From an uncultured Actinomycetes bacterium (GTDB lineage: Bacteria > Actinomycetota > Actinomycetes > Nanopelagicales > Nanopelagicaceae), in NCBI GenBank assembly GCA_903922745.1, contig CAIXVA010000084.1, positions 1 through 19,736 of the forward strand: a stretch of 19,736 bases of DNA. The letters run 5' to 3'. Below are positions 903 through 19,255 of this stretch, piece by piece. Under the pieces are notes generated by a model, which did not search any database, was not told the origin of the DNA, and saw nothing but the letters and a program-made list of their open reading frames with translations. A program made the position numbers and the translations under genes. The stretch's first letter is position 1; each line of letters starts with the position of its first letter.

Positions 903-2518
903 AAATCAGATCTTCACTTCTTTCAATAGCTCTTGTGCTTGCGGTAATAACTGCGCCTAACTCTGCTGCGGTTGCATCGACGTTATCAATGTCATTGCGA
1001 CAGACCCCAAGTTCATCTGAACTTTTAATAACTCTGTATGGATCGCTTAAGCCCAACAAATCCGGCACAGTAATCAAGATTCAAGTTGATACCAACGGGT
1101 CTTGGAGTACTACAAGGTTTAATACAAAAGTATCAAAGGTTGGTACATGGAAAGTAACCGCTCTGGCAACTGCGCTTGAAGCAAAGGTGCGTTATCGCGC
1201 AGTTGCAGTTGTAGGCAATAAGAGCATCTACTCACCTATTCGGGCAATCGAAATAAAGCAGCAACCTGAAATCTCAAATGTAGATCCTGCATTATTTATC
1301 GATTTATTGGGTCCTGGCGGCCGAATACATGGCGCCGACATAAGCCGCTGGCAACATCCCAATGACAAAGCAATTGACTTCACCAAAATGTATGCAGCAG
1401 GAGTTCGATTCGTTTTTATTAAAGCCTCTGATACTAGAGACTCTGCAGATCAACTATCTGTTAAGTATGCGGCAATGGACCATAACGCTGCACAAGCTGC
1501 TGGAATCTTTACTGGCTTTTATCATTACGCAGTATTACCTGATGTTACAGATCCAGAGGATATAAAAAGGGATGCGCTAGCACAGGCCCAAAAAGTTGTC
1601 TGGCGGTTAGCAGCTATGGGCGGATACGGCGAGAAAGATTTGCCATATGCACTAGACCTTGAGAATAAATGTGTTCGGCTCTCTACTTCTGGTGCTTGTC
1701 AGAAATATGCAACTAGAAGCGCTGTGACATTGTGGGCGACTACTTTCCTTGCGTCAGTAAAAGAGAAAACGGGTAGAACTCCTATTGTGTATTCATATGC
1801 AAATTTTCTTGAAGGTTCCATGGTTCGCTCAACTGAACTTGCTCAATATCCATTGTGGTTGGCCCAATATGCAATTGATCCAGCAAATCCAATTAATCAA
1901 CCCGGATTAAAAGCTGGCGGTTGCTATGTGCATTCTTGGACCGGTGCCAACTGTGATTCTCAATGGACTGTCTGGCAGTACACATCGTGTGGAATTGCAG
2001 ATAAATATGGCGTACCGGGAGCCCGATTAGATTTGAACATATTTAGAGGAACGCCATACGCATTTCTTGATTTGGCTAAAGGATCCTGGGCGCCAACATT
2101 GTTGGATTTAATGCCGCTGCAAGAAGCTTCAACTATTGCTGTATTAGATCAATCGGCAAGTACAACCAATAAGTTGGTTACCTTCAAAGTTTCTGTAGTA
2201 CGTCCAAACGGTTCGCCCGTTGTAACTGGTGGAGTTAAGTTGGTCTTTGATAAGACAACCGTGCCTGATCCAGAGCCAATTCAAACAATTTTGCGCGAAA
2301 CAAGCGGTGTGTGGACTTTAGCCATCAAGGGCGTTCCAGCTGGAACATTTGTAGGAAAAGTTCTATATCAAGATGTCTCCGGAACGCATGCAGATTCAAC
2401 TTTTCCAGTCACTTTTACCGTGGCACAAGGCCCAACACCTACCCCAAAACCGACACCTTCACCCACTGCAACTAAAAAGCCAACTACTGATGGTTGCAAA
2501 GGGCAGATTAAGAATTAA
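899..2518 (+). CDS. Secreted GH25 lysozyme with flanking Ig-like domains and Pro/Thr tail
   Basis: A 539-residue exported N-acetylmuramidase of glycoside hydrolase family 25, predicted to cleave the MurNAc-GlcNAc bond of peptidoglycan. A Sec-type signal peptide (two basic residues, hydrophobic core, AVA-type cleavage site near 26) is followed by a beta-rich domain at about 28-120. The GH25 domain spans about 143-395: GADISRW (D147), FVFIKASD, GFYHY, the LDLE acidic pair D253/E255 (catalytic region), and WQY at 359-361. A second Ig-like beta domain lies at about 403-510, and a Pro/Thr/Lys-rich tail ends in DGCKGQIKN. There is no LPXTG motif or C-terminal membrane helix, so it is probably secreted or wall-bound. 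Translation is probably coupled to the upstream small gene through ATGA. The 3' end overlaps convergent glpD by 11 bp. The role could be wall remodelling or attack on other bacteria; the sequence does not decide. Confidence 0.88.
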   Translation: MKIRSSLLSIALVLAVITAPNSAAVASTLSMSLRQTPSSSELLITLYGSLKPNKSGTVIKIQVDTNGSWSTTRFNTKVSKVGTWKVTALATALEAKVRYRAVAVVGNKSIYSPIRAIEIKQQPEISNVDPALFIDLLGPGGRIHGADISRWQHPNDKAIDFTKMYAAGVRFVFIKASDTRDSADQLSVKYAAMDHNAAQAAGIFTGFYHYAVLPDVTDPEDIKRDALAQAQKVVWRLAAMGGYGEKDLPYALDLENKCVRLSTSGACQKYATRSAVTLWATTFLASVKEKTGRTPIVYSYANFLEGSMVRSTELAQYPLWLAQYAIDPANPINQPGLKAGGCYVHSWTGANCDSQWTVWQYTSCGIADKYGVPGARLDLNIFRGTPYAFLDLAKGSWAPTLLDLMPLQEASTIAVLDQSASTTNKLVTFKVSVVRPNGSPVVTGGVKLVFDKTTVPDPEPIQTILRETSGVWTLAIKGVPAGTFVGKVLYQDVSGTHADSTFPVTFTVAQGPTPTPKPTPSPTATKKPTTDGCKGQIKN

Positions 2519-4169
2519 CCTCAAGTAGCTGATCTAGAGCGGCAATTTCACGATCAACTAATTCTGTGTATTGCGCAACAGACTCTTTTCGTTCCTTCGC
2601 ACTCCACCCAAGAACTGGAGCAATTAGTGCTGCAACTTCATCTGCAAGATGCACGCCATGATTGACCGCTTCGAAAGACAAGCGAGTACGGCGAGAAATT
2701 ACATCATCTACTGATCGTGCACCTTCGTGAGAAGCCGCATAGAGAACTTCAGCCTTTATATACGGCAGGTTCATATCCAATTTGTTAGCTAATTTAGGTT
2801 GTTCCTCAATTATTTCAAGGATCTCGCTAATTAATGAACCATGGCGATTTAGTAAATGTACAACAGTCTCTACATCTAGCCCAGATTCTTGAGCTATACG
2901 CTCTTTCTGTTGCTCTAATGCGAAGTAGCCATCTGCCCCTACTAAAGGAAGTTTTTCAGTCACAGAGTCTTGAGTTAATTTACGTAGTTCAATTACTGCT
3001 CGATCAACTACATCTTTGCCCATGACTCGATATGTCGTGTACTTGCCGCCGGCAATCGATACAAAGCCAGCAGCTGGTCGATCTACGGTGTGCTCACGGG
3101 AAAGCTTTGTTGTTGTTGCGCTCTTGTTGTTTGCAACTAATGGACGCAATCCTGCATAAACGCCGATAATTTCATCTGCTTGTAACTTTGGTTCGAGAAC
3201 GCGATTGGCTTGATCCAATATGTATTGAACATCTGCGCGAGTAGCAAATGGCTCTGCACGATCACCCTCATACGGAGTATCTGTTGTGCCAACAATCCAC
3301 TTGTCTCCCCATGGAATTATGAACAGCACAGAAATCGGAGTCTTTAAAATAATTCCGGCATCAGATTTAATCGCAGATCCAGGAAGGACAATGTGTGCGC
3401 CCTTACTCATTGTCACGTGATATCCAGGAGTTAATTCAAAGCGCTCATGTAATTGATCGCTCCATACACCGGCACACATGATCGTCGCCCCTGCTTTAAT
3501 AGCAATCTTTTTTCCTGATGCTAAATCAAGAGCATTTACCCCAACTACACGCTTGCCTTCACGGATCAATGATTCAGCAGAAACTTGGGTGGCAATGATT
3601 GCACCGTGGCGTGCTGCGGTTCGTGCAACTGCCATTGTGTGGCGGGCATCATCAACTTGGGCATCAAAGTATTTGATTGCACCTGTGACTATGTCATGAC
3701 GAAGTGACGGTGCAATTTCATTAATCTGTTTTTGACTTAGGTGTTTATGCCACGGCAACGCGCGTTGAAATCCACGTAATGCATCATAGAGAGCTAAACC
3801 TGCTCCAACATAGGTGCGTTCTTTAAACTTTTCAGTTAGTGGAAATAAAAATCCCACTGGCTTAACAAGATGTGGGCACAATGTTGAAACCATTAACTCA
3901 CGCTCGTGCAAAGCTTCTCGTACTAATTTGAAATCATATTGTTCAAGATATCTAAGACCACCATGAATTAACTTGCTAGATCTGCTCGATGTTCCAGCAG
4001 CAATATCTTGCGCCTCGATAAGGGCGACTTTTAATCCGCGAGAGGCGGCATCTAAGGCAGCACCCACACCGTTGACTCCCCCGCCAATAACGAGGATGTC
4101 GAATTGTTCTGTGCCTAATTGGGAAATGGCAGAGTCACGCTGGTCTGGGCCAAGTTGTGACAAGAACAT
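2508..4169 (-). CDS. glpD: Glycerol-3-phosphate dehydrogenase (FAD, quinone-linked)
   Basis: It oxidises sn-glycerol 3-phosphate to dihydroxyacetone phosphate and passes electrons through FAD to membrane quinones, feeding glycerol into glycolysis. At 553 residues it is the usual GlpD length. The N-terminal dinucleotide-binding motif (GGGVNGVG, about residues 29-36) is followed by the GlpD signature [17 protein letters not shown] (about 61-77), [13 protein letters not shown], and an AGLRPL segment. The C-terminal DAO_C region carries [17 protein letters not shown]. The ATG at 4169 is supported by GGAG (complement of 4181-4184), 11 nt upstream. It diverges from glpK across 64 bp, so the pair can be controlled together. 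No GlpF or GlpR is visible. The last 11 bp overlap the end of the convergent lysozyme gene. Confidence 0.95.
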
Positions 4170-4233
4170 ATGCGTTGCATCTCCGTATCCAGTGAGTACG
4201 CTAAGCCTAACTTACGGCGAGGGGTTGCGCGCA
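4170..4233. promoter_or_regulatory. Divergent glpD/glpK promoter region with symmetric -10
   Basis: The 64-bp gap holds TACGCTA at 4197-4203. Read on + it gives TACGCT (4197-4202) for glpK, with TTGCAT at 4175-4180 as a possible -35 (16-bp spacer). Read on - it gives TAGCGT (4203-4198) for glpD; no good -35 is visible on that strand. Both implied transcripts leave roughly 20-25 nt leaders holding Shine-Dalgarno-like sequences: GAGGGG at 4219-4224 for glpK and GGAG (complement of 4181-4184) for glpD. No clear operator palindrome is seen. Confidence 0.45.
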
Positions 4234-5733
4234 GTGTCATACATCGGGGCATACATCGGCAGTTTGGATCAGGGCACTAGTAGCACTCGATTCATGATCT
4301 TTGACCATGCAGGCCAGGTTGTTGGGCAGCACCAACTAGAACATCGACAAATTCTTCCGCAAGCAGGGTGGGTCGAACATGATGCCGCTGAAATTTGGGA
4401 GCGAACTCAAGAAGTTATTGCTGGCGCTCTGAAGCAAGCGAACATATTGGGCTCAGATTTAGCAGCAATTGGGCTGACCAACCAACGTGAAACAACCGTG
4501 GTGTGGGATGTAACAACAGGTCAACCGCTATCTAATGCAATTGTTTGGCAAGACACCAGAACAACAGATTTCTTGGCCACTTTGTCAGATGAGCAACAGC
4601 AAATGATTCGCCACGCAACCGGATTAACAATCGCACCGTACTTTGCTGGCAGCAAGATGAATTGGTTTCTCAAAAATGTTCCTGCAGCAAAGACCGCCAA
4701 TGCGCGATTTGGAACGGTCGATTCATGGCTGTTGTGGAATTTATCCGGAGGTGTCCGCGGTGGCGTGCACGCAACTGATGTAACAAATGCAAGCCGCACA
4801 TTATTGATGAACCTTGAAACTTTGGATTGGGATGACGAACTCCTTTCTATCTTTGGAGTTTCACGATCTGCCCTACCTGTCATTAAATCTTCTTCGGAAA
4901 CCTATGCGCTTACAGATCCTCATGGTCCATTTGGCACAGCAATTCCGATTGCCGGAATCTTGGGCGATCAACAAGCTGCAATGGTTGGTCAGGTGTGCTT
5001 TGAACGTGGCGAATCAAAGACAACATATGGCACTGGAAACTTCGCGCTACTAAATACTGGAACTGAAATCGTTCGTTCAAAAAATGGTCTGCTGACTACC
5101 GTTTGTTTTAAATTAGGTGATGCACCGGCCCATTACGCATTAGAAGGATCAGTTGCTGTCACGGGTTCTGCAATCCAATGGCTTCGGGATCAATTGGGAA
5201 TTATTTCAAATGCTGCAGAAACTGAAAGCTTGGCATCTTCAGTAACAGATACCGCGGGAGTTTATTTCGTCCCCGCATTTTCTGGTTTATTTGCTCCGTA
5301 TTGGCGGACGGATGCACGCGGCGTGATTGTTGGGTTAACTCGCGCCGCAACAAAGGCACATCTTGCGCGAGCAGCACTGGAAGCTATTTGCTATCAAACA
5401 CGCGATGTTATGGATGCAATGGTTGCTGACAGCGGCGTTCCAATGAAGGAAATGCGTGTTGATGGAGGAATAACAGCTAACTCTTTGTGTATGCAGATGC
5501 AGGCAGATGTAATGGGAATCGACATTACTCGCCCATTAATTGGTGAAACTACAGCGCTCGGTGCTGCGTACGCTGCCGGATTAGCTGTTGGCTTTTGGTC
5601 TTCAACTGATGAAGTTCGAAAGCAATGGAAACAATCTCGTCGTTGGAGCTCTGAAAGCACAGCCGAACAACGCGCAGTTGGTTATGCAGGTTGGAAGAAA
5701 GCTGTTGAGCGAACCTTGAATTGGGTTGATTAA
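4234..5733 (+). CDS. glpK: Glycerol kinase
   Basis: It phosphorylates glycerol with ATP to glycerol 3-phosphate, the substrate of the divergent glpD product. It is an FGGY-family kinase of 499 residues, close to E. coli GlpK (502). Visible motifs are [15 protein letters not shown] near the N-terminus (ATP loop, D12), [16 protein letters not shown] (glycerol-binding), [25 protein letters not shown] and the C-terminal [19 protein letters not shown]. The GTG at 4234 is chosen because GAGGGG ends 9 nt upstream and it gives a family-like N-terminus; the frame stays open further upstream, but that stretch is antisense to glpD. The N-terminus has four extra residues (SYIG then AYIG), explained by a 12-bp tandem duplication. 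The stop overlaps that of the convergent alpha-galactosidase gene by 4 bp. Confidence 0.95.
4238..4259 (+). repeat. 12-bp tandem duplication at the glpK 5' end
   Basis: CATACATCGG occurs at 4238-4247 and again at 4250-4259, exactly 12 bp apart and in frame, encoding YIG twice. Removing one unit gives [16 protein letters not shown], a normal GlpK N-terminus, so the unit looks like a slip duplication that has since drifted slightly. Confidence 0.7.
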
Positions 5734-7832
5734 GCCTTACTTATTTCGATCAAGAAGGCATTCGCGGGAGCCAGAATTGGCGCAGTCACACCAATTGAAG
5801 CAAGAGCTGAACCTGACAGAGTGATTCCAGACATCCAGTCAGGTGGAGTAATTAACATAAAGCGCGGCTTACCTGCTGGATATACAGCTTTGATTACATA
5901 GTTTGCTGTTTCAGCTAATCCAGGAAACTTAAGTGGTGATGGGTGAATTGCAACTGTTGGAGTTAACTGAACATAAGCAAAAATTGCACGAGATGCATCA
6001 TGCGCAATCACGCCATGTAAATATGCGTGTGGTTCTGGGTAATCTACGCGAACCATCTTTCCTGAATGAAGCAGTCCACGATTGTTCTTGTAGTACTGCG
6101 CCCATGTTGCAAGATGCTTACGTTCTTCAGCTGTAGCTTCGGTGATACTCCATTCGATCCCCGCATGGCCAAATAAAGCTGTTGTTGCGCGCATAGAAAG
6201 TTCTAATGTACGACCTGTTTGGTGTCCATGAGTTGGCCCAATGTGAGTTCCAAGTAATTCAGGTGCAATAACTTGAGCTGTCCAACGCTGAATAGTTTGG
6301 CGCTCTAACGCATCATTGTTATCACTTGTCCAGAAGCGATCAACGTAATCAATCACGCCTAAATCAATACGTGCTCCACCTGATGCGCATGATTCAATTT
6401 CAAGTCCTGGATGACGCTTTTTAAGCTCTGCAAATAAACGATAGATCGCTTGTGTTTGGCGATGGATCCCGCCCGAACCTAGGTGACCAGCATCGACTAG
6501 AACGCGGTTGTGATCCCACTTGATGTAGGCAATGTTGTGCGCAGCAAGGACAGCAGAGGTTTGTTCCAGCACATGATTGAACGCACCTTCGTGACCAATA
6601 TCTAGAACTAGTTGATGGCGCCACAGTGGTGGAACACGATCTGCTTCGTGCAATATCCATTCAGGGTGGGCGCGATATAAATCTGAATCTGGGTTAACCA
6701 TTTCGCCTTCAAACCACAGACCAAACTCGATTCCCTTGTCATTGATGTATTTAATAATTGGTGACAAACCATTTGGCCAAACAGCCGGATCGATAACCCA
6801 ATCGCCAAGACCAGCGCGATCATTGCGACGGGAATGGAACCAACCATCATCTAAAACAATTCGCTCGATTCCAACTTCGGCTGCTACATCGACTAGCGCT
6901 TTGATCTTTTCCTCATCATGATCAAAGTACAGCGCTTCCCACATATTAAAAGTCAGTGGTCGTTCTCTCTTTGGATGAACTGCGCGAGCTCGAAGGTATG
7001 AATGGTAGGCAGCGCTTATTCCATCTAAACCTTCTGCTGAATACACAGAAACCAACGCAGGTGCTTCATATGTTTCACCTGAAGCCAGTGTCAATTCACC
7101 AGGTAGCAATAGTTCGCCAGCACCAATTGATTGTGAACCATCAAAGAGTTTTTCAACCAAATAATGTGAGTTACCGCTCCAGGCGATGCTGGTTGCCCAA
7201 GCGCTACCGGATTGAAATGATGTCTGCGAAGTTAGTGCAATATCTGCAATCGAAAAATTGTGTCCGCTGCGACCTTCTCTGGATTCGCGCACCCAAGTGC
7301 CAGTTGCGATCTCTTTGCGCTGCGGATTGCGTTCATTAGACCAACGTCCGGCAAAATCTAAGGTTTGCGTCGCTTCCTTTGGAAGAGGTAACCAATGAAT
7401 AAATTCGTTGAGGCAGTAATCGGTTTCAGCTAAATTCTTAACTATTGCTCTTTGAAATAAAACACCATTGTTATCAAGGTCAAAAGTAATGACAACTTCA
7501 AGCTCTGCATGAAGATCGCGAAAAATGACCACAACGTGGTTTTTCTGATGATGAAAATCGGTGACTTCAAACTTTGTTGACCATGCTTTTCCATTACGGT
7601 GTCCAGATAATGTTGGGCGGCCTAAGAATCCGCGAGAACTCTCGCGCATGATTCCGGGAAACTGTGGTTGATCCCAAGAGCTGTTTGCAATCGATGGTCG
7701 AATCGCAGTTTGCACAGATGCGAGATCTCCATGCACGGGTGCTCCCCAGTGTTGGATTACAAGGGCCCCATCAATAACCTCAAGCAACAGAGATGATGAA
7801 GGTGCGCTCAATAGTGCGGATTGCTTGCTCAC
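5730..7832 (-). CDS. GH36 alpha-galactosidase, cytoplasmic
   Basis: It hydrolyses terminal alpha-linked galactose from oligosaccharides or glycosides (melibiose, raffinose or galactosyl-glycerol types). At 700 residues it has the standard bacterial GH36 layout: an N-terminal beta-sandwich (about 1-290), a (beta/alpha)8 barrel and a C-terminal beta domain. Barrel motifs are [10 protein letters not shown] (296-305), VLDDGWF (326-332), [23 protein letters not shown] (438-443; D440 the expected nucleophile), [12 protein letters not shown] and WTSDNNDA (501-508; D504 the expected acid/base). There is no signal peptide, so the substrate must be imported intact. The start is the GTG at 7832; a TACTCT box 6 nt upstream suggests a leaderless mRNA. 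It diverges from galTEK, which would process the released galactose. Substrate preference cannot be read from sequence alone. Confidence 0.93.
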
Positions 7833-7867
7833 AAAGGTAGAGTAACGACACTATGGGCGAGAGTAAA
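7833..7867. promoter_or_regulatory. Compact divergent alpha-galactosidase/galT promoter, leaderless on both sides
   Basis: Only 20 bp (7833-7852) separate the two start codons. They contain TAGAGTA (7838-7844). On - this gives TACTCT, 6 nt before the GTG at 7832, with TTTACT (complement of 7862-7867, inside galT) as a good -35 at 17 bp. On + it gives TAGAGT (7838-7843), 9 nt before the ATG at 7853; its -35 region (about 7815-7820, TGCGGA) is poor. Neither start has a Shine-Dalgarno sequence. The two polymerase sites overlap almost completely, so they should compete. Confidence 0.5.
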
Positions 7868-8965
7868 AAACTAAAAGCAGGCGTCATCAGAAATGATCGC
7901 CACATGGCCGATGGTCGAACTATTCGCTATTACGACACCGGTGGCCAAGCGCGAAATGTTGAAGATGCCCGGCCACGGGAAGAACAACCAGGAATTGGTG
8001 AACTTCGCCTAGATCCACTGGTCAATGAATGGGTTGCAATGGCAGCTCATCGTCAAGGACGAATCTTCTTGCCACCAAAAGAGCTATGCCCTTTGTGTCC
8101 TACCACGGGTGATTTACTCACTGAAATTCCTGAATCAGATTTTGAAGTTGTTGTCTTTGATAATCGCTCGCCATCACTTCGCCCACCTGTTGGTGATTGG
8201 GCACTTCCTGACATGGTTGGACCTGATACTGATTTAGGAACTGCTGCCGGTAAGTGTGAAGTAATTTGCTTTACCGCAGAACACGGAAAAGCATTTAAGG
8301 ATCTCACCCCACAACGTGTTCGCACCTTGCTTGAGGCATGGATTGATCGCACCGCCGAACTGTCACAAGAAAGCTTTATTGAACACATTGCTCCCTTTGA
8401 AAACCGCGGCGAAGAAATCGGTGTGACTCTGTCTCACCCACACGGTCAGATCTATGCCTATTCATATATTCCACCTCGCGTTGAAAAGATGTTAACTGCA
8501 GCCAATAAGTACAAAGAACAAACTGGCAAAGTTTTATTTGACGAAATTGTTGCCCGTGAGATTAGAGATAAAGAGCGCATCATTGCTAGAAATGATCGTT
8601 GGATCGCATTTGTTCCATACGCTGCCCGTTACCCATTTGAAATTCACATCACTCCCCTGAACCCAGTTGCAGATCTGACTGGTTTAACAGATGCAGATCG
8701 TGATGCTTTCCCAGAGATCGCACTTGAAGTTACACGCAGATTGGATGGCGTCTTTGGAATTGAAATGGCTTACATCGCTGCCTGGCACCAAGCACCTGTG
8801 CGTGTTGGTCGAGATGTGATGCGCCTGCATTGGCAGATCACAAGTGTTCGTCGCGCCCCTGGAAAATTAAAGTATTTGGCTGGTTCTGAATCTGCGATGG
8901 GTGCATTCATTATGGATATGCGCCCAGAACAATCTGCAGCCCAGTTGCGCGAAGTAGTTTTGTAA
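7853..8965 (+). CDS. galT: Galactose-1-phosphate uridylyltransferase
   Basis: This Leloir pathway enzyme exchanges galactose 1-phosphate with UDP-glucose, giving UDP-galactose and glucose 1-phosphate. It has 370 residues, near the family norm. CPLC (C79, C82) is the first part of the zinc site. HPHGQ (195-199) holds the nucleophilic histidine of the HIT-type active site, preceded by FENRGEEIGVTLS. FEIHITPL and AAWHQAPV are further family segments. The ATG at 7853 is used; an in-frame ATG at 7904 would remove a short non-conserved N-terminus and is less likely given the promoter position. The stop TAA shares its last A with the ATG of galE (TAATG), so galT and galE are probably translationally coupled. 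First gene of galTEK. Confidence 0.95.
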   Translation: MGESKKLKAGVIRNDRHMADGRTIRYYDTGGQARNVEDARPREEQPGIGELRLDPLVNEWVAMAAHRQGRIFLPPKELCPLCPTTGDLLTEIPESDFEVVVFDNRSPSLRPPVGDWALPDMVGPDTDLGTAAGKCEVICFTAEHGKAFKDLTPQRVRTLLEAWIDRTAELSQESFIEHIAPFENRGEEIGVTLSHPHGQIYAYSYIPPRVEKMLTAANKYKEQTGKVLFDEIVAREIRDKERIIARNDRWIAFVPYAARYPFEIHITPLNPVADLTGLTDADRDAFPEIALEVTRRLDGVFGIEMAYIAAWHQAPVRVGRDVMRLHWQITSVRRAPGKLKYLAGSESAMGAFIMDMRPEQSAAQLREVVL

Positions 8966-9918
8966 TGCGGGTTTTAGTAACTGGCGGTACTGGCTACATC
9001 GGTTCGACTGCAGTTGAAATATTGCTCACCCAAGGCTTTGAAATCTCAATTTTAGATGATTGCAGCATGGGCCATGCCGACACGGTCCCTGCTGGTGTGC
9101 GTTTTGTTCAAGGTTCACTTCTCAATAGCAGCGAAGTTGCCGACGCCCTAACCGGTTGCGATGCGGTCATGCACTTTGCGGGCAAATCATTAGTTGGCGA
9201 ATCTGTTGAAAAACCTGATCTCTATCATTCAGTAAATGTTGATGGAACTCGCATTTTGTTGGATGAAATGCGCAAGCAATCGATTACAAAGATTGTTTTC
9301 TCATCATCTGCAGCTACATATGGAGAGCCAAAGGTTGTTCCTATCCTTGAAACTTCCGAGACAATTCCAACTAACCCATATGGTGCGACAAAGCTTGCCA
9401 TTGATCACATGATCACGGCAGAAGCTGCAGCCCAAGGAATATCTGCAGCCTCATTACGTTACTTCAATGTCGCTGGTGCTTTAAAGGCAGAACGTGGATG
9501 GCTGGCAGAGCGACATAGCCCTGAAACTCATCTGATTCCTAATGTTTTGCGCAGCACAACAGATAGCCCTGTGAAAATATTTGGTACTGATTGGCCAACT
9601 GCCGATGGCACGTGTGTTCGTGACTATGTTCATGTCATTGACTTGATTGATGCACATATCAAGGCTCTCCACTCGCTCGGTACACATGGCCATGAGATCT
9701 ATAACCTAGGCAGCGGTTCTGGTTACTCAGTGCGCGAAGTTGTTTCTGCAGCAAGTGCTGCCACTGGACATCAGATTCCATTTATTGATTCTCCGCGTCG
9801 TGCGGGTGATCCTGCGGTTTTGATCGCAGATATATCAAAGGCCAACTCAAAGCTTGGGTGGCAACCAACGCGAGATTTAAACACAATGGTTTCAGATACC
9901 TTGAAATCAATGGCATAG
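8965..9918 (+). CDS. galE: UDP-glucose 4-epimerase
   Basis: It interconverts UDP-galactose and UDP-glucose, regenerating the UDP-glucose used by GalT, and it also supplies UDP-galactose for surface polysaccharides. It is a 317-residue extended short-chain dehydrogenase/reductase. The NAD-binding TGGTGYIG lies at 6-13, SSSAATYGEP at about 113-122, and the catalytic YGATK pair Y139/K143. RYFNVAGA, a SPETHLIPNVL segment and DGTCVRDYVHV are typical of GalE and distinguish it from other sugar-nucleotide epimerases. It starts inside the galT stop codon and ends 2 nt before galK, so the three genes form one tight operon. Confidence 0.94.
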   Translation: MRVLVTGGTGYIGSTAVEILLTQGFEISILDDCSMGHADTVPAGVRFVQGSLLNSSEVADALTGCDAVMHFAGKSLVGESVEKPDLYHSVNVDGTRILLDEMRKQSITKIVFSSSAATYGEPKVVPILETSETIPTNPYGATKLAIDHMITAEAAAQGISAASLRYFNVAGALKAERGWLAERHSPETHLIPNVLRSTTDSPVKIFGTDWPTADGTCVRDYVHVIDLIDAHIKALHSLGTHGHEIYNLGSGSGYSVREVVSAASAATGHQIPFIDSPRRAGDPAVLIADISKANSKLGWQPTRDLNTMVSDTLKSMA

Positions 9919-9920
9919 CA

Positions 9921-11057
9921 ATGAGCTCTATCGAAGAAAAGTTTCTCGAAACTTTTGGTGCTGAACCGGATCTAGTTGCTGCGGCCCCTGGTCGGGTTAA
10001 TTTAATCGGCGAACACATCGATTACAGCGAAGGCTTTGTTCTCCCCTTTGCAATTAAAGATAGAACTTTGGCCGCTGTGCGAAAGCGTGATGATTCAACT
10101 GTTCGTATTGCATCTGTTCAGCGTCGCAACAAAATTGTCACGGTAGATATCAATAATGTTAAACCAGGACTCAAGGGTGAATGGGAGCGATATGCGCTCG
10201 GCGTCCTATGGTCGATGGGCGTAAAAAGTGGAGTCGATCTTATGATTGATGGGCATGTTCCACTTGGCGCCGGACTTTCTTCTTCTGCGGCTCTTGAATG
10301 TTCTGTGGCAACTGCGATGAATCACTTGTTTGACATGGGATTTAATCTAGAAGAGCTTGCACGTTTAACTCAAAAAGCAGAAAATCAATATGTCGGAGTC
10401 CCCTGCGGCATTATGGATCAATCTGTTTCGCTCATGGCAACCCGCGGGTCTGCGCTATTGCTGGACTGCCGAGATCTTTCAACTCGAAATATTTCATTTG
10501 ATGTTGCATCGCACGGATTAGAGCTTCTAATAATTGATACTCAAGCCCACCATGCTTTAACCGATGGAGGGTATGCCGAACGCCGAGCATCGTGTGAGTC
10601 TGTTGCAGCTAAATTGGCTGTTAAATCTATGCGTGAATTAACGATGGCACAGTTAGATGCTGCTCGAGGTCAACTCGCAGATACCGAATACATCCGTGCC
10701 CGACATGCTGTCAGTGAAATGAAGCGAGTTCTAGATTGTGTAGAAGCGTTAATCAATGGTGATTTTGTAAAAGTTGGCCAGCTAATAAATGCCTCGCATG
10801 TTTCGTTACGCGATGATTACACCGTTTCTTGTCCCGAACTAGATACTGCTGTTGATGCTTCGTTGGCTGCAGGAGCACTTGGCTCTCGCATGGTCGGTGG
10901 TGGTTTTGGTGGCAGTGCAATCGCCCTGATTCAGGCTTCAAAAACAACCCAAACAATTCGAGCAGTTGAAAGTGCTTTTGCAGATAGAAAATTCAAGGCA
11001 CCGCGATTTTTTACTTCACTGCCAAGTCAAGGCGCAGAGCTTCTTTCTAGACGCTAG
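9921..11057 (+). CDS. galK: Galactokinase
   Basis: It phosphorylates alpha-D-galactose at C1 with ATP, the entry step of the Leloir pathway. It is a GHMP-family kinase of 378 residues (E. coli 382). All three motifs are present: the galactokinase signature PGRVNLIGEHIDYSEG (23-38), the ATP loop PLGAGLSSSAAL (114-125) and MVGGGFGGSA (324-333). GIMDQ at 163-167 holds the expected catalytic Asp (D166). The ATG at 9921 is chosen because it gives the normal N-terminus 2 nt after the galE stop; the frame is open further upstream, but that is inside galE. No galactose mutarotase (galM) or sugar transporter follows. The next gene is convergent after 16 bp, with no obvious terminator hairpin. Confidence 0.95.
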   Translation: MSSIEEKFLETFGAEPDLVAAAPGRVNLIGEHIDYSEGFVLPFAIKDRTLAAVRKRDDSTVRIASVQRRNKIVTVDINNVKPGLKGEWERYALGVLWSMGVKSGVDLMIDGHVPLGAGLSSSAALECSVATAMNHLFDMGFNLEELARLTQKAENQYVGVPCGIMDQSVSLMATRGSALLLDCRDLSTRNISFDVASHGLELLIIDTQAHHALTDGGYAERRASCESVAAKLAVKSMRELTMAQLDAARGQLADTEYIRARHAVSEMKRVLDCVEALINGDFVKVGQLINASHVSLRDDYTVSCPELDTAVDASLAAGALGSRMVGGGFGGSAIALIQASKTTQTIRAVESAFADRKFKAPRFFTSLPSQGAELLSRR

Positions 11058-11333: not shown

Positions 11334-11717
11334 TTACGCGAGGATTACCCAGTCGCCTTTAATGGCAACTTTTACCGAAGGCAGCGGGTTGGTCGCTGGG
11401 CCTGACACGACAGCACCGGCTTTAAATGGATTAAAGCTGGCATTGTGAACTGGGCACACAAGTAACTTTCGCGTTGGAAAGTACTGCGTTAATCCGCCCT
11501 GATGAGTACAGATCGTTTGATAGGCAAACACACCGGTCTTTGTGCGAAACAGCAGAGCGGGCGCTCCATTGCTTAGTTGAAAGGAATATGTAGCGCCAAC
11601 CTTGATCTTGCTCAACTTAATAATCTGGTTATTTGCCGCGACTGCGCGTGAACCGAACAGGGTTGTGCTCGCCCCGATCAGGGCCATGCGAAGTGCTGAT
11701 CTACGTGTGAGCTTCAT
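11334..11717 (-). CDS. Tat-exported Rieske-type [2Fe-2S] protein
   Basis: A 127-residue exported electron carrier. The N-terminus has a twin-arginine signal (TRRSALR at 4-10, hydrophobic stretch, AVAA near 25-28), so the folded protein with its cluster would be exported by Tat. The Rieske ligands are C70-T-H72 (CTHQGG) and C88-P-V-H91 (CPVHNASF). Respiratory Rieske proteins also have a disulfide from CTHLGC and CPCHGS; here both extra cysteines are missing (G and V), which resembles ferredoxin-type Rieske domains. The chosen ATG at 11717 is 3 nt past the tRNA-Asn 3' end; a longer open frame (to 11744) would lie inside the tRNA. The redox partner is unknown. Confidence 0.85.
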   Translation of the reverse strand: MKLTRRSALRMALIGASTTLFGSRAVAANNQIIKLSKIKVGATYSFQLSNGAPALLFRTKTGVFAYQTICTHQGGLTQYFPTRKLLVCPVHNASFNPFKAGAVVSGPATNPLPSVKVAIKGDWVILA

Positions 11718-11720
11718 ATG

Positions 11721-11792
11721 CTCCCTGACTTGGATTCGAACCAAGAACCTGTCGATTAACAGTCGACTGCTCTGCCGTTGAGCTATCAGGGA
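11721..11792 (-). tRNA. tRNA-Asn (anticodon GTT)
   Basis: The - strand folds as a complete cloverleaf. The acceptor TCCCTGA pairs with TCAGGGA, the D stem is GCTC/GAGC, the anticodon stem GTCGA/TCGAC encloses loop CTGTTAA (anticodon GTT), and the T arm is CTTGG-TTCGAAT-CCAAG. The discriminator base is G (11721), as expected for tRNA-Asn. CCA is not encoded. The tRNA lies 3 nt upstream of the Rieske start codon. Confidence 0.97.
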
Positions 11793-11857: not shown

Positions 11858-13699
11858 CTAAAGGCTGCCTAGCGCCAAATCATGCAGAGATCTGCGGGCA
11901 CTTTCCAGCGCAACTAATTGGGCAAATGCCGCCGTGTATTCGATCTCATTTTCTACTGGATTCAAGCGCTGTAGTGATGATTTGAGTTCGGCGATAGAAC
12001 GAGAAATTGCCACCTCTCGCAAACGAGCCACGATGCTTGCAACGTATGAAGCAGATGGCTTTCCATCGGCGCGGATAGGTTCAACTGTTAACTCAGTAAA
12101 CAACGCTTTCACGTTCTCGTCAGCAATATTGTCTGGTGCGATTCTTTCTACAGAATCAATAGCCAATCGCAAGGCAATATAGGCAGGATGTGTGAATGCT
12201 CCGGCTTCAATTGAACTCCATAAATCATCCACGAAAAGTGATGGCTCTTGCAACTTCGCCTTTAAGACTTCGCGTTCCAAAATTAGTCGTGCTTCATTGG
12301 GGTCTGGTCTGAAATTTGGTTGAACAGTTGTTTCTTCAACCGCTGATTGTTGTGCGGGCGCTGTTTTGACTCCGCGAGAGACGGCCTTAGTTACAAGTTC
12401 CACCTCAACGCCAAGCCACCCTGCAAGAAGCCTGGTGTATTCAGGACGCAATGACTTGTCTCGAATCTGCGCAACTAATGGTGCTGCGGCATTTAGCGCG
12501 TTAACTCGACCTTCGGCTGAATCTAACTTGTGATGTTTTAATTCTGCGCGGATTGCAAACTCAAATAAAGGAACACGACGTGCAATTAAATCCCGCAGTG
12601 CAAGATCGCCCTTTTCTTGGCGAAGCTCGCAAGGATCCAATCCATCTGGTTCAACAGCAACAAATGTTTGTGTAACAAACTTTTGATCCTCACTGAATGC
12701 ACGTAGCGCTGCCTTTTGCCCTGCAGCATCACCGTCGAATGTAAAGATAACTTCACCACGGAATGCATCATCATCCATTAGTAATCTGCGCAAAATTCGA
12801 ATGTGGTCTGCGCCAAATGCGGTACCGCACGTTGCAACGGCTGTTGTAATACCAGCAAGGTGAGCTGCCATCACATCTGTGTAACCTTCAACAATGACTG
12901 CTTGACGCTTTTTAGCGATCTCTTTCTTTGCAACATCTAACCCATATAAGACTTGGCTCTTCTTATAAATCGGAGTTTCAGAGGTATTTAAATACTTTGG
13001 ACCTTGATCATCGGCATCACTGGCTAGCTTTCTAGCACCAAATCCAACAACATCACCTGAAATATCTTTGATGGGCCACATCAACCGATTACGGAACTTA
13101 TCGATTGGACCACGTTGACCCATCTTTGAAAGTCCAGCTAGCTCTAGCTCGTCAATTGTGTAACCAAGTGCACGTAAATGTTTTGTTAGTCCATCCCATT
13201 CATCGGGTGAATACCCAACACCAAACTGTTCGCAGGCTGCTCGATCAAAGCCGCGCTTTGTGAGCAAATCGCGACCATGCGCAGCACCTGGCGAAGAATT
13301 AAGTTGCTCTTGATAAAACTTTGCGGCCTCTACATGTGCTGCTATTAATCTATTACGAGTACCTGAAGTAACTACGGGTCCTGTGCTTGAACCTTCGTCA
13401 TATCGGAGGGTATAGCCGATGCGATCTGCAAGACGTTCGATAGTTTCTGTAAAAGTTAAGTGATCGATCTTCATCAAAAATGCAATTACATCTCCGCCAG
13501 TTTGGCAGCCAAAGCAGTGAAAATATCCCTTACTTGGTGTCACATGAAATGAGGGCGACTTTTCATCATGAAATGGACACAGACCCTTTTTCTGTCCGCC
13601 GCCTGCATTTTTTAACTGAACATAATCTGCAACAACTTCATCGATGGGTGCACGATCTCGGATGTATGCAACATCCTCATCTCTAATGCGACCGCTCAT
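11858..13699 (-). CDS. dnaG: DNA primase
   Basis: It synthesises the RNA primers for replication, acting with the DnaB helicase at the fork. At 613 residues it is full length for actinobacterial DnaG. The N-terminal CHC2 zinc ribbon has C41, H44, C62 and C65 (CPFHDEKSPSF, then FHCFGC). The catalytic core has the Toprim glutamate motif EGYTDVM (E271) and the metal-binding FDGDAAG (D322, D324). A C-terminal helicase-binding region follows. The ATG at 13699 is 9 nt after the dgt stop, with TAAGG overlapping that stop as a likely ribosome site. It is the last gene of the glyS-dusB-(DUF218)-dgt-dnaG run. dgt next to dnaG is a familiar actinobacterial arrangement linking the dNTP pool and replication. 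Confidence 0.96.
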   Translation of the reverse strand: MSGRIRDEDVAYIRDRAPIDEVVADYVQLKNAGGGQKKGLCPFHDEKSPSFHVTPSKGYFHCFGCQTGGDVIAFLMKIDHLTFTETIERLADRIGYTLRYDEGSSTGPVVTSGTRNRLIAAHVEAAKFYQEQLNSSPGAAHGRDLLTKRGFDRAACEQFGVGYSPDEWDGLTKHLRALGYTIDELELAGLSKMGQRGPIDKFRNRLMWPIKDISGDVVGFGARKLASDADDQGPKYLNTSETPIYKKSQVLYGLDVAKKEIAKKRQAVIVEGYTDVMAAHLAGITTAVATCGTAFGADHIRILRRLLMDDDAFRGEVIFTFDGDAAGQKAALRAFSEDQKFVTQTFVAVEPDGLDPCELRQEKGDLALRDLIARRVPLFEFAIRAELKHHKLDSAEGRVNALNAAAPLVAQIRDKSLRPEYTRLLAGWLGVEVELVTKAVSRGVKTAPAQQSAVEETTVQPNFRPDPNEARLILEREVLKAKLQEPSLFVDDLWSSIEAGAFTHPAYIALRLAIDSVERIAPDNIADENVKALFTELTVEPIRADGKPSASYVASIVARLREVAISRSIAELKSSLQRLNPVENEIEYTAAFAQLVALESARRSLHDLALGSL

Positions 13700-13708
13700 G
13701 TTCGTACC

Positions 13709-14923
13709 TTACCGATTAGCAAGTAGTCGTGCATGCAAGGCATAGGCACCCGGGTCAGTAAGGGCGGCAACTTGGTCAATTATCACGCGCATTTTCGCGA
13801 TCTCATCACTCGCCTCATTCCAGGGCTTCTGGAAGTACGAATCAAGTTCGCCGGGATATTTCAACAGCATCTCTACTAGCTCACCAACGATTACCTGTTG
13901 CTTTGCATATCTATCTTGAGAATGAGCCGCATTAATTAAGTAATGTCCCGCAATTGCCTTTAAGAAATCTACTTCGACTTTTTGTTCACGTGGAATTTCT
14001 AGATCTGCGCTGTAGCGTGAAAGTGGGCCATTGCCATGGATTGTGCGAGTTTGAACTTCGGCAGCTAAAACAAATCGTCCAATTAACTGGCTAGTTGAAT
14101 CTTTAAGTCGTGCAAGGCTGCGATGGCTGCCATCGTAATAATGCGGCCAAGCCGAGAGCGCAGAAAGTCTTGCATGCGCATCGAGTGCCTCTTGCTCTGT
14201 TGCATCACTTTTGTAATCACTTGTCATAACTGTGAATAGCTGTGAAAAATCTTGTTCAAAATTCTTAACTGATACCTGCCCAGCAAAGATTGCATCCTCT
14301 AAATCATGGACAGAGTATGCACAGTCATCAGACCAATCCATGATTTGCGCTTCAATACATTTCTTGCCCGCCGGTGCTTGTTGGCGCATCCATGTAAATA
14401 TTTCTACATCATCGTCATAGACACCAAACTTACGAGGATTTTCAGACCTAGGCCATGGATACTTTGTTGCACCATCTAATGAAGCACGGGTTAAGTTAAG
14501 TCCAATACTTTTACCGTTGGTATCAATGGTCTTTGCTTCTAGGCGTACCAACAATCTAAAACTTTGTGCATTTCCTTCAAAGCCACCAAAGTCCTGTGCA
14601 ATCTCGGCCAATGCTTCTTCGCCATTATGGCCAAAAGGTGGATGGCCTAAATCGTGGGCAAGACATGCGGTGTCTTGCAGATCTGGATCTGCCCCTAATG
14701 ACTCCCCTAATTCGCGACCAATCTGTGCGCACTCCAATGAATGTGAAAGTCTGGTGCGTTGAAAGTCATTTTCCCACGGCACTGCTACTTGAGTTTTAGC
14801 AGCTAATCGTCGAAGTGAGGCTGAATGAATTACACGTGCACGGTCGCGCATGAATTCGGTGCGGCCTGCGCGCTTTGCCGGCTCATCTAAAAACCGTTCT
14901 TGGTCAAAGGCGCTGTAACTCAT
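13709..14923 (-). CDS. dgt: dGTPase-like deoxynucleotide triphosphohydrolase
   Basis: An HD-superfamily enzyme that hydrolyses dGTP (and often other dNTPs) to the deoxynucleoside and triphosphate, adjusting the dNTP pool. It has 404 residues, matching the shorter Dgt-like subfamily. The N-terminal RRLAAKTQV segment and the metal-binding histidines H61 (LSHSLE) and H90/D91 (CLAHDLGHPPFGHNGE) are clear. A later acidic pair in DWSDDCAYSVHDLEDA probably completes the site. The gene starts inside the stop of the upstream DUF218 gene (ATGA overlap) and is followed after 9 nt by dnaG, so it should be made together with primase. Substrate range is inferred from the family. Confidence 0.92.
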   Translation of the reverse strand: MSYSAFDQERFLDEPAKRAGRTEFMRDRARVIHSASLRRLAAKTQVAVPWENDFQRTRLSHSLECAQIGRELGESLGADPDLQDTACLAHDLGHPPFGHNGEEALAEIAQDFGGFEGNAQSFRLLVRLEAKTIDTNGKSIGLNLTRASLDGATKYPWPRSENPRKFGVYDDDVEIFTWMRQQAPAGKKCIEAQIMDWSDDCAYSVHDLEDAIFAGQVSVKNFEQDFSQLFTVMTSDYKSDATEQEALDAHARLSALSAWPHYYDGSHRSLARLKDSTSQLIGRFVLAAEVQTRTIHGNGPLSRYSADLEIPREQKVEVDFLKAIAGHYLINAAHSQDRYAKQQVIVGELVEMLLKYPGELDSYFQKPWNEASDEIAKMRVIIDQVAALTDPGAYALHARLLANR

Positions 14924-15573
14924 GGCAATACCTTAGTAACAATATCTGCGCCAGGTAAGTGATCACTTACTTGTACGCCCCGCCTGCCAACTGTTATGTA
15001 CACCAAATATGCGCCAGCTTCACGAAGTAGGTATTTATAGCCGCTATTAGCAACTGTATTGGGGCCTGTTTTCACCGGTGAACAAGTACTAATAACTCCT
15101 TGATCATTTGCCATCGTCATTGCGCGCTTGCAGTGATAGGGATCAGTAACAATGATGACATCGCTGACATATCGTTTTTTCATAATGGCTGCATACGCTT
15201 TTGTGCTAACTAAAGTATCGCGACCTTCTTCAATGGCAGTTATTTTCTTTGCAGGTATTCCATGTGTACGTAGCCAATATTTGCCAGATGCCGCTTCTGT
15301 TGTTCGGTCCCCTGGAGCGCCTGCACCAACAGTAATAATTGCAGGTGCATATCCAAGATCATAAATACGCTTTGCTTCAATTAAGCGCGCTTCAAGTGCT
15401 TCACCTGGTCTTCCATTTAGTTGCGCCGTCCCTAAAACAACAATGACATCTGCTTGCCGGACAACAGGGTTCTTGGCAGCGCGCCACACTTGCGAGACAC
15501 CATAGGCAGGAGCAATTAGGGCAACAAGCAAAACTAATGTGATTGTGCGACGGATCCATCTAAATAAAAACAT
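14920..15573 (-). CDS. DUF218 (YdcF/SanA-like) membrane-anchored protein
   Basis: A 217-residue protein with one N-terminal membrane helix (about residues 9-27) and a single DUF218 domain. Characteristic segments are ADVIVVLGTAQ, the GEALEARLIEAKRIYDLG helix, ITVGAGAPGDRTTEAA, EEGRDTLVSTKAYA and VIIVTDPYHCKRA. In E. coli SanA affects envelope barrier function and YdcF binds S-adenosylmethionine; the family's biochemical activity is not settled, so no reaction is assigned. Its ATG follows the dusB stop directly (TAAATG), and its own stop overlaps the dgt start by 4 bp, so it is embedded in the operon. The domain probably faces outside, judging from the positive residues before the helix. Confidence 0.85.
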   Translation of the reverse strand: MFLFRWIRRTITLVLLVALIAPAYGVSQVWRAAKNPVVRQADVIVVLGTAQLNGRPGEALEARLIEAKRIYDLGYAPAIITVGAGAPGDRTTEAASGKYWLRTHGIPAKKITAIEEGRDTLVSTKAYAAIMKKRYVSDVIIVTDPYHCKRAMTMANDQGVISTCSPVKTGPNTVANSGYKYLLREAGAYLVYITVGRRGVQVSDHLPGADIVTKVLP

Positions 15574-16740
15574 TTATCCGCCTGAAAACGCATCCTCTAG
15601 TTCAACGTGAACTAGTTCATCAGGATCATTGAGCCAGCCATCTGGCAATGTGGGCGGACGACCATGACTTGTGCGACCACGTGGCTTGTCGCCTACTTCT
15701 GTTGGATACGGTTGATCTTCTAGCTGATCTAATAAATTGCGCATCTCTTGCAAAGAAGAAACCATTCCAAGATCATGTCTTATCTCGCGTGGAACGCGGA
15801 AACCCTTTAAATACCAGGCCATGTGCTTTCGCATATCTCGCATTCCACGATCTTCAGACTCTAAGTACTCAGTAATTAAAATTGCATGGCGGAACATAAC
15901 TTCGCGAACCTCGTGCAATGTTGGCGTGATCTGCTTTCCTTCACCCTTAAGTGAAGAGACAAGATCAGTGAACAGCCATGGTCGCCCCAAGCATCCGCGT
16001 CCAACTACGACACCTGCGCATCCGCTTTGTTCCACCATGTCGATTGCATCGCGTCCGGACCAAATGTCGCCATTGCCTAAAACAGGTACTCCAGTTGGCT
16101 TTAAGTGCTCAACAAGTCGCGCTATTGCAGACCAATCGGCTTTGCCTTCATACATTTGCGCCGCCGTACGTGCGTGTAATGCAACCCAAGCAACACCTAA
16201 ATCAGCAGCAGATTTGGCCGCTTCTAAATACGTTTCATGATCACTATCAATACCAATGCGCATCTTTACGGTTACTGGGATTCCAAAAGGTTTCGCTGCC
16301 TCAACAGCTGCGCCAACAATATTGCTAAATAGTTTTCGCTTAAAGGGAAGTGCTGCTCCCCCACCTTTGCGAGTTACCTTTGGTACTGGGCAGCCAAAGT
16401 TCATATCGATGTGATCAGCTAAATTTTCTTTTCCGATCATAGTTACAGCAGCACGCATAGTTGTTGGATCAACGCTATACAACTGGACAGAACGTGGCCA
16501 CTCATCTTTGCCAGGAACAATCATTCGCAATGTTTCTGGACGACGTTCAATTAATGCGCGCGCAGTAACCATTTCAGATACAAATAATCCTGCTCCTTGT
16601 TCGCGGCACAGCGTGCGAAATGGTGCATTAGTTATTCCGGCCATGGGCGCTAGAACAACCGGTGGATCTATGTAGTGATCACCGCTTGCTAATGGAAGTA
16701 GAAGTGGTTTTAGCAACCTAGTAAACGAGGTGCTAACCAT
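15574..16740 (-). CDS. dusB: tRNA-dihydrouridine synthase
   Basis: A flavin enzyme that uses NADPH to reduce uridines in the tRNA D-loop to dihydrouridine. It has 388 residues. [17 protein letters not shown] (26-42) is the FMN-binding start of the TIM barrel. MNFGCPVPK (113-121) carries the catalytic C117. [32 protein letters not shown] and the [10 protein letters not shown] segment complete the barrel. A C-terminal basic extension with [11 protein letters not shown] is usual in actinobacterial homologues. The ATG at 16740 gives a 31-bp overlap with the end of glyS. A TTG at 16716 would reduce the overlap to 7 bp and remove only 8 non-conserved residues, so the start is uncertain. Assignment to DusB rather than another Dus is from general similarity. 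Confidence 0.92.
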
Positions 16741-18089
16741 GCCTCGACCTGATCTAGGCCGATGCGCTCTTGCGCCATTGTGTCGCGATCGCGAATTGTT
16801 ACTGCATTGTCTTCGAGTGTTTCAAAGTCAATAGTGATGCAGTACGGAGTACCGATTTCATCTTGACGACGGTAACGGCGACCAATTGCCCCAGCATCAT
16901 CAAAATCAATATTCCAGTTCTTGCGAAGCTGTGTTGCAAGATCGCGCGCCTTAGGAGATAGATCTGCGTTGCGCGACAATGGAAGAACTGCAGCTTTAAT
17001 TGGCGCAAGGCGATGATCGAGCTTTAGTACCGCGCGCTTTTCCATCTCGCCCTTGCTGTTTGGTGCTTCATCTTCTGTGAATGCATCCATCAAGAAAGTA
17101 AGTGTGCAGCGATCAACTCCTGCTGCAGGCTCGATAACAAATGGTGTCCAACGCTCGCCCTTTTCCTGATCAAAGTACGAAAGATCTTTACCTGAGGCTG
17201 CAGAGTGAGCCTTTAGATCAAAGTCGGTGCGGTTTGCAATACCTTCAAGCTCGCCCCATTCGGTGCCGGCAAATTCAAACTTATATTCGATATCTGCAGT
17301 GCGCTTTGAATAGTGTGACAACTTCTCTTTTGGATGATCGTAAATACGTAGACGTTCTGGGTTAATACCAAGATCTACATACCAAGCCATGCGAGTATCA
17401 ATCCAGTACTGATGCCAGTCTTCATCGCTACCAGGGACTACAAAGAACTCCATTTCCATCTGCTCAAATTCACGAGTACGGAAAATAAAGTTTCCAGGTG
17501 TGATTTCGTTTCGGAAAGATTTACCAATTTGGCCAATACCAAATGGTGGCTTCTTGCGTGACGTTGTCATTACTTGATCAAAGTTAATAAAGATTCCTTG
17601 CGCTGTTTCTGGGCGCAAATAAGCAAGACCTGATTCATCTTCTACTGGTCCAAGGAAAGTCTTAAGCAATCCACTGAACTGTTTAGGAGTAGTGAACTGC
17701 CCCTTGTTTCCACATGCAGGACAGTTAACTTCAGTTAGGGATTCTGGCTTCTTCTTATGCTTTGCTTCATAAGCTTCTTCAAGATGGTCGGCACGGTAAC
17801 GCTTATTACAAGCGGTGCACTCAGTCAGTGGATCACTAAATGTTGCAACGTGTCCTGATGCTTCCCATACTTCTTTTGCCAAGATCACACATGAGTCCAG
17901 ACCAACAACATCTTCGCGGCCCATGACCATGGACTTCCACCACTGGCGCTTCACATTATTTTTTAACTCAACACCTAATGGACCGTAATCCCATGATGCA
18001 CGAAGTCCGCCATAAATTTCAGATGATGGGTAAACAAAGCCACGACGCTTTGCAAGTCCTACGATATTTTCTAAACGGTCCGTTGCCAC
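16710..18089 (-). CDS. glyS: Glycyl-tRNA synthetase (single-chain, dimeric type)
   Basis: It charges tRNA-Gly with glycine and is essential for translation. It is the homodimeric class II form (also called GlyQS) found in actinobacteria, not the alpha2-beta2 form. The N-terminus has [20 protein letters not shown] and the [13 protein letters not shown] segment. An inserted zinc-ribbon-like part has CTACNKRY and CPACGNKG. Motif 2 is [14 protein letters not shown], and the C-terminal anticodon-binding domain follows [14 protein letters not shown]. The GTG at 18089 (459 residues) is preferred over the ATG at 18101: GGAG lies 6 nt before the GTG and actually overlaps that ATG. It heads the run that continues into dusB, the DUF218 gene, dgt and dnaG. 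Confidence 0.95.
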
Positions 18090-18154
18090 AATAATCTCCA
18101 TCCGGCTGGCTGTCGGCGGTCAGCAACATGTGTTACTTCCGTGTGATTATTTTA
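18090..18154 (-). promoter_or_regulatory. glyS leader with -10 box and ribosome site
   Basis: A strong -10-like TAAAAT (complement of 18149-18154) overlaps the stop codon of the upstream small gene; no good -35 is seen. It would give a leader of about 50 nt that ends in GGAG (complement of 18096-18099), 6 nt before the GTG. That ribosome site decides the glyS start. The leader contains only a weak GC-rich hairpin and no T-box features. Confidence 0.45.
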
Positions 18155-18436: not shown

Positions 18437-18472
18437 AGCCCCGAGCCTAATCGGATACCCTAAAACAATGAA
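18437..18472. promoter_or_regulatory. Divergent ABM-like/ZIP promoter region, leaderless on both sides
   Basis: The gap itself is 31 bp (18437-18467). On +, TACCCT (18456-18461) ends 6 nt before the ATG at 18468. On -, TAGGCT (complement of 18444-18449) ends 7 nt before the ATG at 18436, with TTCATT (complement of 18467-18472) as a weak -35 at 17 bp. TACCCTA (18456-18462) also gives a second - strand box, TAGGGT. No zinc-uptake operator could be recognised by eye. Confidence 0.45.
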
Positions 18473-19228: not shown

Positions 19229-19255
19229 ATTTGGAATCGCTACGCTTTTCCAAAT
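19229..19255. repeat. Inverted repeat across the uppS 3' end
   Basis: ATTTGGAA (19229-19236) and its complement TTCCAAAT (19248-19255) form an 8-bp stem with an 11-nt loop that contains the uppS stop codon. It sits between convergent genes and could be a weak bidirectional terminator, but the stem is AT-rich and has no T-tract on either side. Chance is possible. Confidence 0.25.

Follow-up and report, generated by a model that had tools for sequence, protein, structure and literature searches.

A galactoside-utilisation block with a glycerol arm in freshwater Nanopelagicales, with galactosylglycerols as its possible substrates

The window analysed here is a stretch of 19,736 nucleotides, carried on contig 84 of the draft genome G000 (1.16 Mb, 79% complete), which, among named genomes, is matched most closely by Ca. 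Planktophila and other actinobacteria from fresh water, that is, the acI group (Nanopelagicales). It holds six contiguous genes, glpD, glpK, a glycoside hydrolase family 36 (GH36) gene, galT, galE and galK, which we regard as a galactoside-utilisation module with a glycerol arm. A first-pass annotation had taken the block for a pathway dedicated to alpha-galactosyl-glycerol (floridoside or isofloridoside). The co-localisation of the glp, gal and GH36 genes on which it built stands, as does the coupling of glpK to GH36, and the dedication does not, because GH36 is paired with a LacZ-type beta-galactosidase and is separable from the glpK-galT pair. We read the block instead as the core of a Nanopelagicales galactoside-plus-glycerol module whose main substrates are most likely mono- and especially digalactosylglycerol, a reading to which we give a probability of about 0.45.

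The block was laid out from the list of open reading frames (ORFs) and from profile matches as follows.

2508..4169, minus strand: glpD, flavin adenine dinucleotide (FAD)-dependent glycerol-3-phosphate dehydrogenase, 553 residues (Pfam DAO and DAO_C)
4234..5733, plus strand: glpK, glycerol kinase (TIGR01311, 698 bits, cut-off 590)
5730..7832, minus strand: predicted GH36 alpha-galactosidase, 700 residues (Pfam Melibiase and GH36 N- and C-terminal domains)
7833..7852, no strand: divergent GH36/galT spacer, 20 bp, with a near-symmetric TAGAGTA/TACTCTA box, a candidate shared -10 element
7853..8965, plus strand: galT, galactose-1-phosphate uridylyltransferase (TIGR00209, 148 bits, cut-off 102)
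8965..9918, plus strand: galE, UDP-glucose 4-epimerase (TIGR01179, 342 bits, cut-off 262)
9921..11057, plus strand: galK, galactokinase (TIGR00131, 308 bits, cut-off 227)

Each member of the Leloir trio GalK, GalT and GalE exceeds the cut-off of its TIGR model. Both enzymes of the glycerol pair are present as well, GlpK by its score and GlpD by its full Pfam domains, the latter protein reaching 349 bits against the NCBIfam GlpD model, slightly below the cut-off of 360. Homology in glpK begins only at 4249, and the mechanical ORF start at 3973 was rejected as overlong; GTG 4234 and TTG 4225 are both in-frame start candidates. The start of galK is ATG 9921, internal to a longer mechanical ORF. 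The glpD and glpK genes diverge, glpK and GH36 converge with a 4-bp overlap of their tails, and GH36 and galT diverge across the 20-bp gap. These alternating directions rule out a single six-gene operon, so the block consists of several transcripts. The earlier description of six contiguous genes in which glp and gal are not one operon is therefore borne out.

The GH36 protein is a predicted alpha-galactosidase by its domains and aligned aspartates. Its Pfam scores are 384 bits for Melibiase and 119 and 28 bits for the further GH36 domains, each against a cut-off of 27. D440 (in IKWDHNR) and D504 (in WTSDNND) align with aspartates of AgaA that we take to be the catalytic nucleophile and acid/base. 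Judged by eye, the N-terminus is without a signal peptide, in agreement with the first-pass annotation. With AgaA/AgaB, AgaSK and other GH36 enzymes in the Protein Data Bank, the window protein shares the full-length three-domain match, the aligned aspartates (in AgaA) and the lack of a signal peptide; it differs from them in being adjoined by glycerol genes rather than by sucrose or raffinose genes.

The neighbourhood of glp, gal and GH36 genes is not a local accident of the window genome. Among the named relatives, the best 80 of 245 candidate loci by similarity to the window GH36, 60 have glpK as the immediate neighbour of GH36, with galT on the far side of GH36 in 56 and the contig breaking off on that side in four; three others have glpK at another position in the locus. 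This sampling over-represents near relatives, and the surrounding genes dnaG, dgt and GH25 keep their places with much the same constancy as the block itself, so conserved order alone is weak evidence. More telling are loci in which the order has changed. In L054, L061 and L064 the gal-GH36 side is inverted relative to glpDK and the outer neighbours are different, and glpD, glpK, galK and GH36 stay together; in L061 and L064, glpD-glpK-galK-LacZ-GH36 makes up a single cluster whose flanks are of another kind. A sample of 111 genomes chosen across the order, which overlaps the Planktophila genus sample used below, contains 45 GH36 carriers; in 35 of these, glpK and GH36 are no more than 10 kb apart, a linkage that spans six sampled genera (g1, g2, g4, g7, g10, g11) and two gene orders. 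Among the 44 genomes of this sample that carry both genes, three have them 10-20 kb apart and six have them on different contigs, where the distance is not visible in drafts. On the GH36 tree, whose root is uncertain, the window-type clade stands apart from a clade of LacZ-linked and inverted types, and glp linkage is present in both; L039 bears the glpK-linked label on this tree by default and is not so linked. The co-localisation that the first-pass annotation proposed checking thus extends far beyond the window genome, contrary to the case in which these genes would be neighbours there by chance only. We note that the block also appears in four loci titled Bifidobacterium breve or Streptomyces griseus (L025, L027, L028, L035), which look like misnamed lake metagenome bins. 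Strain IMCC19121 (L015) carries the block too; attempts at keeping such strains in stable culture are reported to have failed (PMC5301498).

Of LacZ, glpK and xylA, the three genes compared with GH36 in their distribution, the one that tracks it best is LacZ, which encodes a LacZ-type beta-galactosidase. A protein of about 1000 residues adjoins GH36 in L046, L048, L057, L058, L059, L061, L064 and L065. In six of these loci it separates GH36 from the gal genes; in L057 and L059 the contig breaks off within it. The L046 copy is a LacZ-type GH2 beta-galactosidase by profile scan, and the other copies are homologous to it by clustering; no signal peptide is apparent by eye in the five copies whose starts were examined, which look cytoplasmic. 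With cut-offs of 1e-60 for GH36, 1e-150 for glpK, 1e-100 for LacZ and 1e-80 for xylA, GH36 and LacZ are both present in 44 of the 111 order genomes, only one of them in four (GH36 in G102; LacZ in G098, G120 and G138) and neither in 63, giving a phi of 0.93, although the relatedness of the genomes and the incompleteness of the drafts mean that p-values for such co-distribution overstate independence. The sole control sugar gene, the galactose-unrelated xylose isomerase gene xylA, gives a phi of 0.31 with GH36 and 0.30 with LacZ. For glpK the phi with GH36 is 0.62, the gene being present in 44 of the 45 GH36 carriers and in 24 of the 66 genomes without GH36. In the window genome itself LacZ is a fragment (G000:C218), with about 390 N-terminal residues before the contig breaks off; with this contig-edge fragment counted, the genome encodes alpha-galactosidase, beta-galactosidase and the galactose and glycerol routes. 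The first-pass annotation had set digalactosyl-glycerol aside for want of a beta-galactosidase, and this objection is rejected. In Planktophila, LacZ stands beside the polyphosphate kinase gene ppk in G015, G036 and G005 (loci L122, L123 and L125), and a distant second GH36 stands beside ppk in G039, G051 and G018 (L121, L135 and L137). Galactosidase genes seem to have used the flank of ppk as a landing site.

A candidate importer came from the same neighbourhoods. After GH36 in L049 come genes for a sugar-binding protein and two permeases. One of these permeases has a counterpart of 77% identity in L064, encoded directly after GH36 by a gene that the contig end truncates. The check for a sugar ATP-binding cassette (ABC) transporter near the block in relatives is thereby answered in two of them, with one permease visible in the second. 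None of the 11 window ORFs that were profile-scanned encodes a sugar transporter, the ORFs at 11858-18101 (named by eye) and 19240-19725 lying outside that scan. A homologue of the L049 binding protein is present elsewhere in the window genome (G000:C79:823-2142, 47% identical), and both proteins match AcbH over nearly their full length with E about 1e-80. They share this match with the AcbH/GalHFG importer of Actinoplanes and differ from it in that importer genes adjoin GH36 in two acI relatives; the acI ligand would be a galactoside. The title of Licht et al. 2011, as given in PMC7682106, ascribes to AcbH, the nearest solved binding protein, an exclusive preference for beta-D-galactopyranose.

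Gain and loss were followed in 61 Planktophila genomes, 34 with and 27 without GH36. LacZ is present in 28 of the 34 and in four of the 27, and the importer, scored by its binding protein at 1e-30, in 24 of the 34 and two of the 27. In this scoring, LacZ and glpK matches cut at contig edges count as present, and the broken LacZ of G044 counts as absent; matches of 27-35% identity (the second matches of G003 and G053, that of G024, and a piece in G025) were not scored as GH36. G045 was scored as lacking glpK despite a 60-residue glpK end at a contig edge, and given this genome glpK in the GH36-less genomes may stand at 12/27, and at 4/7 among those at least 90% complete; with and without GH36, 21 genomes reach this level, a set defined by completeness alone that includes G010 at 6% contamination. 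The tree used 54 of the 61 genomes, with G016, G034 and G050 dropped and G009, G029, G056 and G058 lacking sequence for it. On it, seven groups are without GH36, and all seven are also without intact LacZ and without the importer binding protein: G049 and G054; G042 and G059; G044; G024; G033 and G026; G045, G055, G014 and G028; and a group around G057, G047 and G001, in which G048 and G031 are poorly placed. In the first three of these groups glpK is absent too; it is retained in G024 and in G033 and G026, and mixed in the rest. LacZ is kept without a counted GH36 in G019 (56% complete) and G025 (71%), which go against this pattern, and in G029 and G056, which are off the tree. Six of the 34 carriers of GH36 have no LacZ (G008, G010, G020, G023, G027 and G032), and G010 alone among these six reaches 90% completeness. 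Between its galT and glpK genes, G024 keeps about 15 recognisable GH36 codons and an early stop codon, and the LacZ of G044 is in pieces, so these two cases are losses; for the others gain is possible. A second, distant GH36 (51-53% identical) is the GH36 of nine of the 34 carriers, all nine of which have LacZ, and it lies about 12-13 kb from glpK where a single contig covers both (G018, G039, G051). In G001, G030, G031, G049 and G054 the locus has eroded down to galT alone. In these lone-galT loci (L129, L131, L134, L165 and L166) galK, galE, GH36 and glpDK are not in the locus, galK and galE having been searched for at the locus only.

Digalactosylglycerol is alpha-Gal-(1,6)-beta-Gal-glycerol, and mono- and digalactosylglycerol are the deacylated head groups of monogalactosyldiacylglycerol (MGDG) and digalactosyldiacylglycerol (DGDG), the main plastid and cyanobacterial lipids. 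Breakdown of digalactosylglycerol needs an alpha-1,6-galactosidase, a beta-galactosidase, the Leloir enzymes, and glycerol kinase and dehydrogenase, which fits the observed gene set, and breakdown of beta-galactosylglycerol needs all of these except the alpha-galactosidase. With LacZ as the closest companion of GH36 among the genes compared, floridoside and isofloridoside account for the data less well than would a mixture of substrates or a single one that carries both linkages. In the proposed pathway, the AcbH-like ABC importer, coupled to GH36 by its distribution in the genus and by two neighbourhoods, would bring in the galactoside. The cytoplasmic GH36, a predicted alpha-galactosidase by its family and aligned residues, would cut off the alpha-1,6-linked outer galactose, and the LacZ-type enzyme, encoded elsewhere in the genome and tied to GH36 by co-distribution, would split the remaining beta-galactosylglycerol. 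GalK, GalT and GalE, whose families are seen and whose reactions are established, would convert galactose to glucose 1-phosphate, and GlpK and GlpD, on the same footing, glycerol to dihydroxyacetone phosphate. Floridoside and isofloridoside could join at the GH36 step as side substrates. The genes may also be co-regulated. We tentatively propose, at somewhat less than even odds, that abundant freshwater Actinobacteria have a complete intracellular digalactosylglycerol pathway, made up of a near-obligate alpha-/beta-galactosidase pair, glycerol and galactose genes and an AcbH-like importer, that is kept or lost largely as a unit.

The alternative that survives best is general galactoside scavenging, a serious option if a rather doubtful one, in which GH36 and LacZ would act on assorted alpha- and beta-galactosides, the importer would serve galactose or galactosides, galTEK galactose and glpDK free glycerol, the glp/gal adjacency being due to shared history and streamlining. 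Broad use of both kinds of galactoside would likewise lead one to expect the GH36-LacZ pairing, and a number of observations weigh on its side or otherwise against galactosylglycerols as the main substrates. Adjacency of glpK and galT is kept in genomes without GH36 and LacZ, many of them Planktophila, and GH36-gal occurs without neighbouring glpDK in L039, L046, L048 and L058 (L065 was left out of this count, since its GH36 reaches the contig end), so glycerol use is separable. The galT and galE genes are missing from the inverted loci L054, L061 and L064. In the Planktophila loci examined, LacZ lies away from the block, often beside the polyphosphate kinase gene. The non-independence of the genomes and the constancy of the dnaG, dgt and GH25 flanks belong on the same side. 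The preference ascribed to AcbH would fit plain galactose uptake too, and a table for four acI strains in PMC5301498 lists transporters for raffinose/stachyose/melibiose and for galactose oligomers, in keeping with general galactoside use.

Against general scavenging, GH36 and LacZ share their presence and absence nearly one to one despite their separate locations in Planktophila, glpK accompanies GH36 in all but one of its carriers, and the glp-galK-LacZ-GH36 cluster of L061 and L064 recurs with different flanks. There are known clusters that combine gal genes with both kinds of galactosidase and have no connection to glycerol, a further point against galactosylglycerols. In those of the lactobacilli type, GH36, a LacZ-type enzyme and Leloir genes stand together, as they do in L046, L048, L058 and L065, whereas acI has glpK and glpD linked or co-distributed and an AcbH-like importer.

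A dedicated floridoside or isofloridoside route, by GH36 alone and then the Leloir and glycerol steps, we consider unlikely. The stoichiometry fits, GH36 is coupled to glpK, and a characterised GH36 enzyme is described in a passage of PMC8509150 as making isofloridoside in the reverse reaction. Such a route requires no beta-galactosidase and leaves the GH36-LacZ pairing unexplained; by the criterion we set for it, GH36 and glpK should occur independently of a beta-galactosidase, yet just one of the 45 GH36 carriers is without LacZ, and red algae or chrysophytes would have to account for a gene kept in 45 of 111 genomes. Marginally more improbable still is the absence of any functional link, an ancestral chance neighbourhood preserved by low rearrangement in streamlined genomes, which the conserved synteny of the whole region favours and which is countered by two gene orders and two GH36 clades that are both glp-linked, by glpK presence that tracks GH36 even at 10-20 kb separation, and by the joint absence of GH36, LacZ, importer and glpK in three separate groups.

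The GH36/galT spacer is near-invariant among relatives (42 divergent loci), L039 and L076 differing most. Where GH36 adjoins galT in Planktophila, 23 of 24 loci have TAGAGT followed by A (TACTCT on the opposite strand); among galT upstream regions that lack an adjacent GH36 the figure is 13 of 31. One symmetric -10-like box may drive GH36 and galT as near-leaderless transcripts. As a signal shared with LacZ or the importer, the spacer gave no match at up to four mismatches in 18 LacZ, importer and variant loci, in a scan that also took in the window and one GH36/galT locus; a look-alike, GTTAGAGTAACCGC, lies upstream of LacZ in L059.

Elsewhere in the window, the end of glpD is overlapped by the gene of a GH25 lysozyme-like protein (899-2518), whose N-terminus resembles a signal peptide by eye and whose position is retained in many relatives, also where glpDK and GH36 are lacking. 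A small Rieske-domain ORF (11334-11792, TTG start 11744) overlaps a tRNA-Asn gene (11720-11792), so its true start is probably further in. At 18152-18514 and 18414-19205 two ORFs overlap, one for a ZupT-like metal transporter (51 bits, cut-off 252), the other short, opposite and without an NCBIfam match; one start is probably misplaced.

Parts of this picture have precedents. A passage of PMC5574706 places alpha-galactosidase in all three acI clades, with expression in acI-A and acI-C, and one of PMC5301498 gives alpha- and beta-galactosidase/glucosidase only in two of four acI strains, in agreement with the GH36-LacZ pairing. Neither source passage ties the enzymes to glycerol or galactosylglycerol. 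Action of beta-galactosidase on galactolipid-derived galactosylglycerols was proposed for Escherichia coli by Egel (1979, 1988, as quoted in PMC8333865), and his galactosylglycerol hypothesis for the lac operon is also quoted in PMC11896792. The common feature is a beta-galactosidase on galactolipid head groups; acI adds an alpha-galactosidase and a glycerol kinase, which would cover digalactosylglycerol, in a planktonic freshwater host. Among the literature matches listed for bacterial use of galactosylglycerol, digalactosylglycerol and floridoside and for acI galactosidases, none links these enzymes in acI to glycerol or galactosylglycerol, and the only related idea is Egel's proposal, present as a quotation.

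The acI group is among the commonest groups of lake bacteria. If GH36 and LacZ together with glpK mark the use of galactolipid head groups, the membranes of lysed phytoplankton would be a named food source for these organisms, and the lineages that depend on it could be predicted from whether or not they carry the module.

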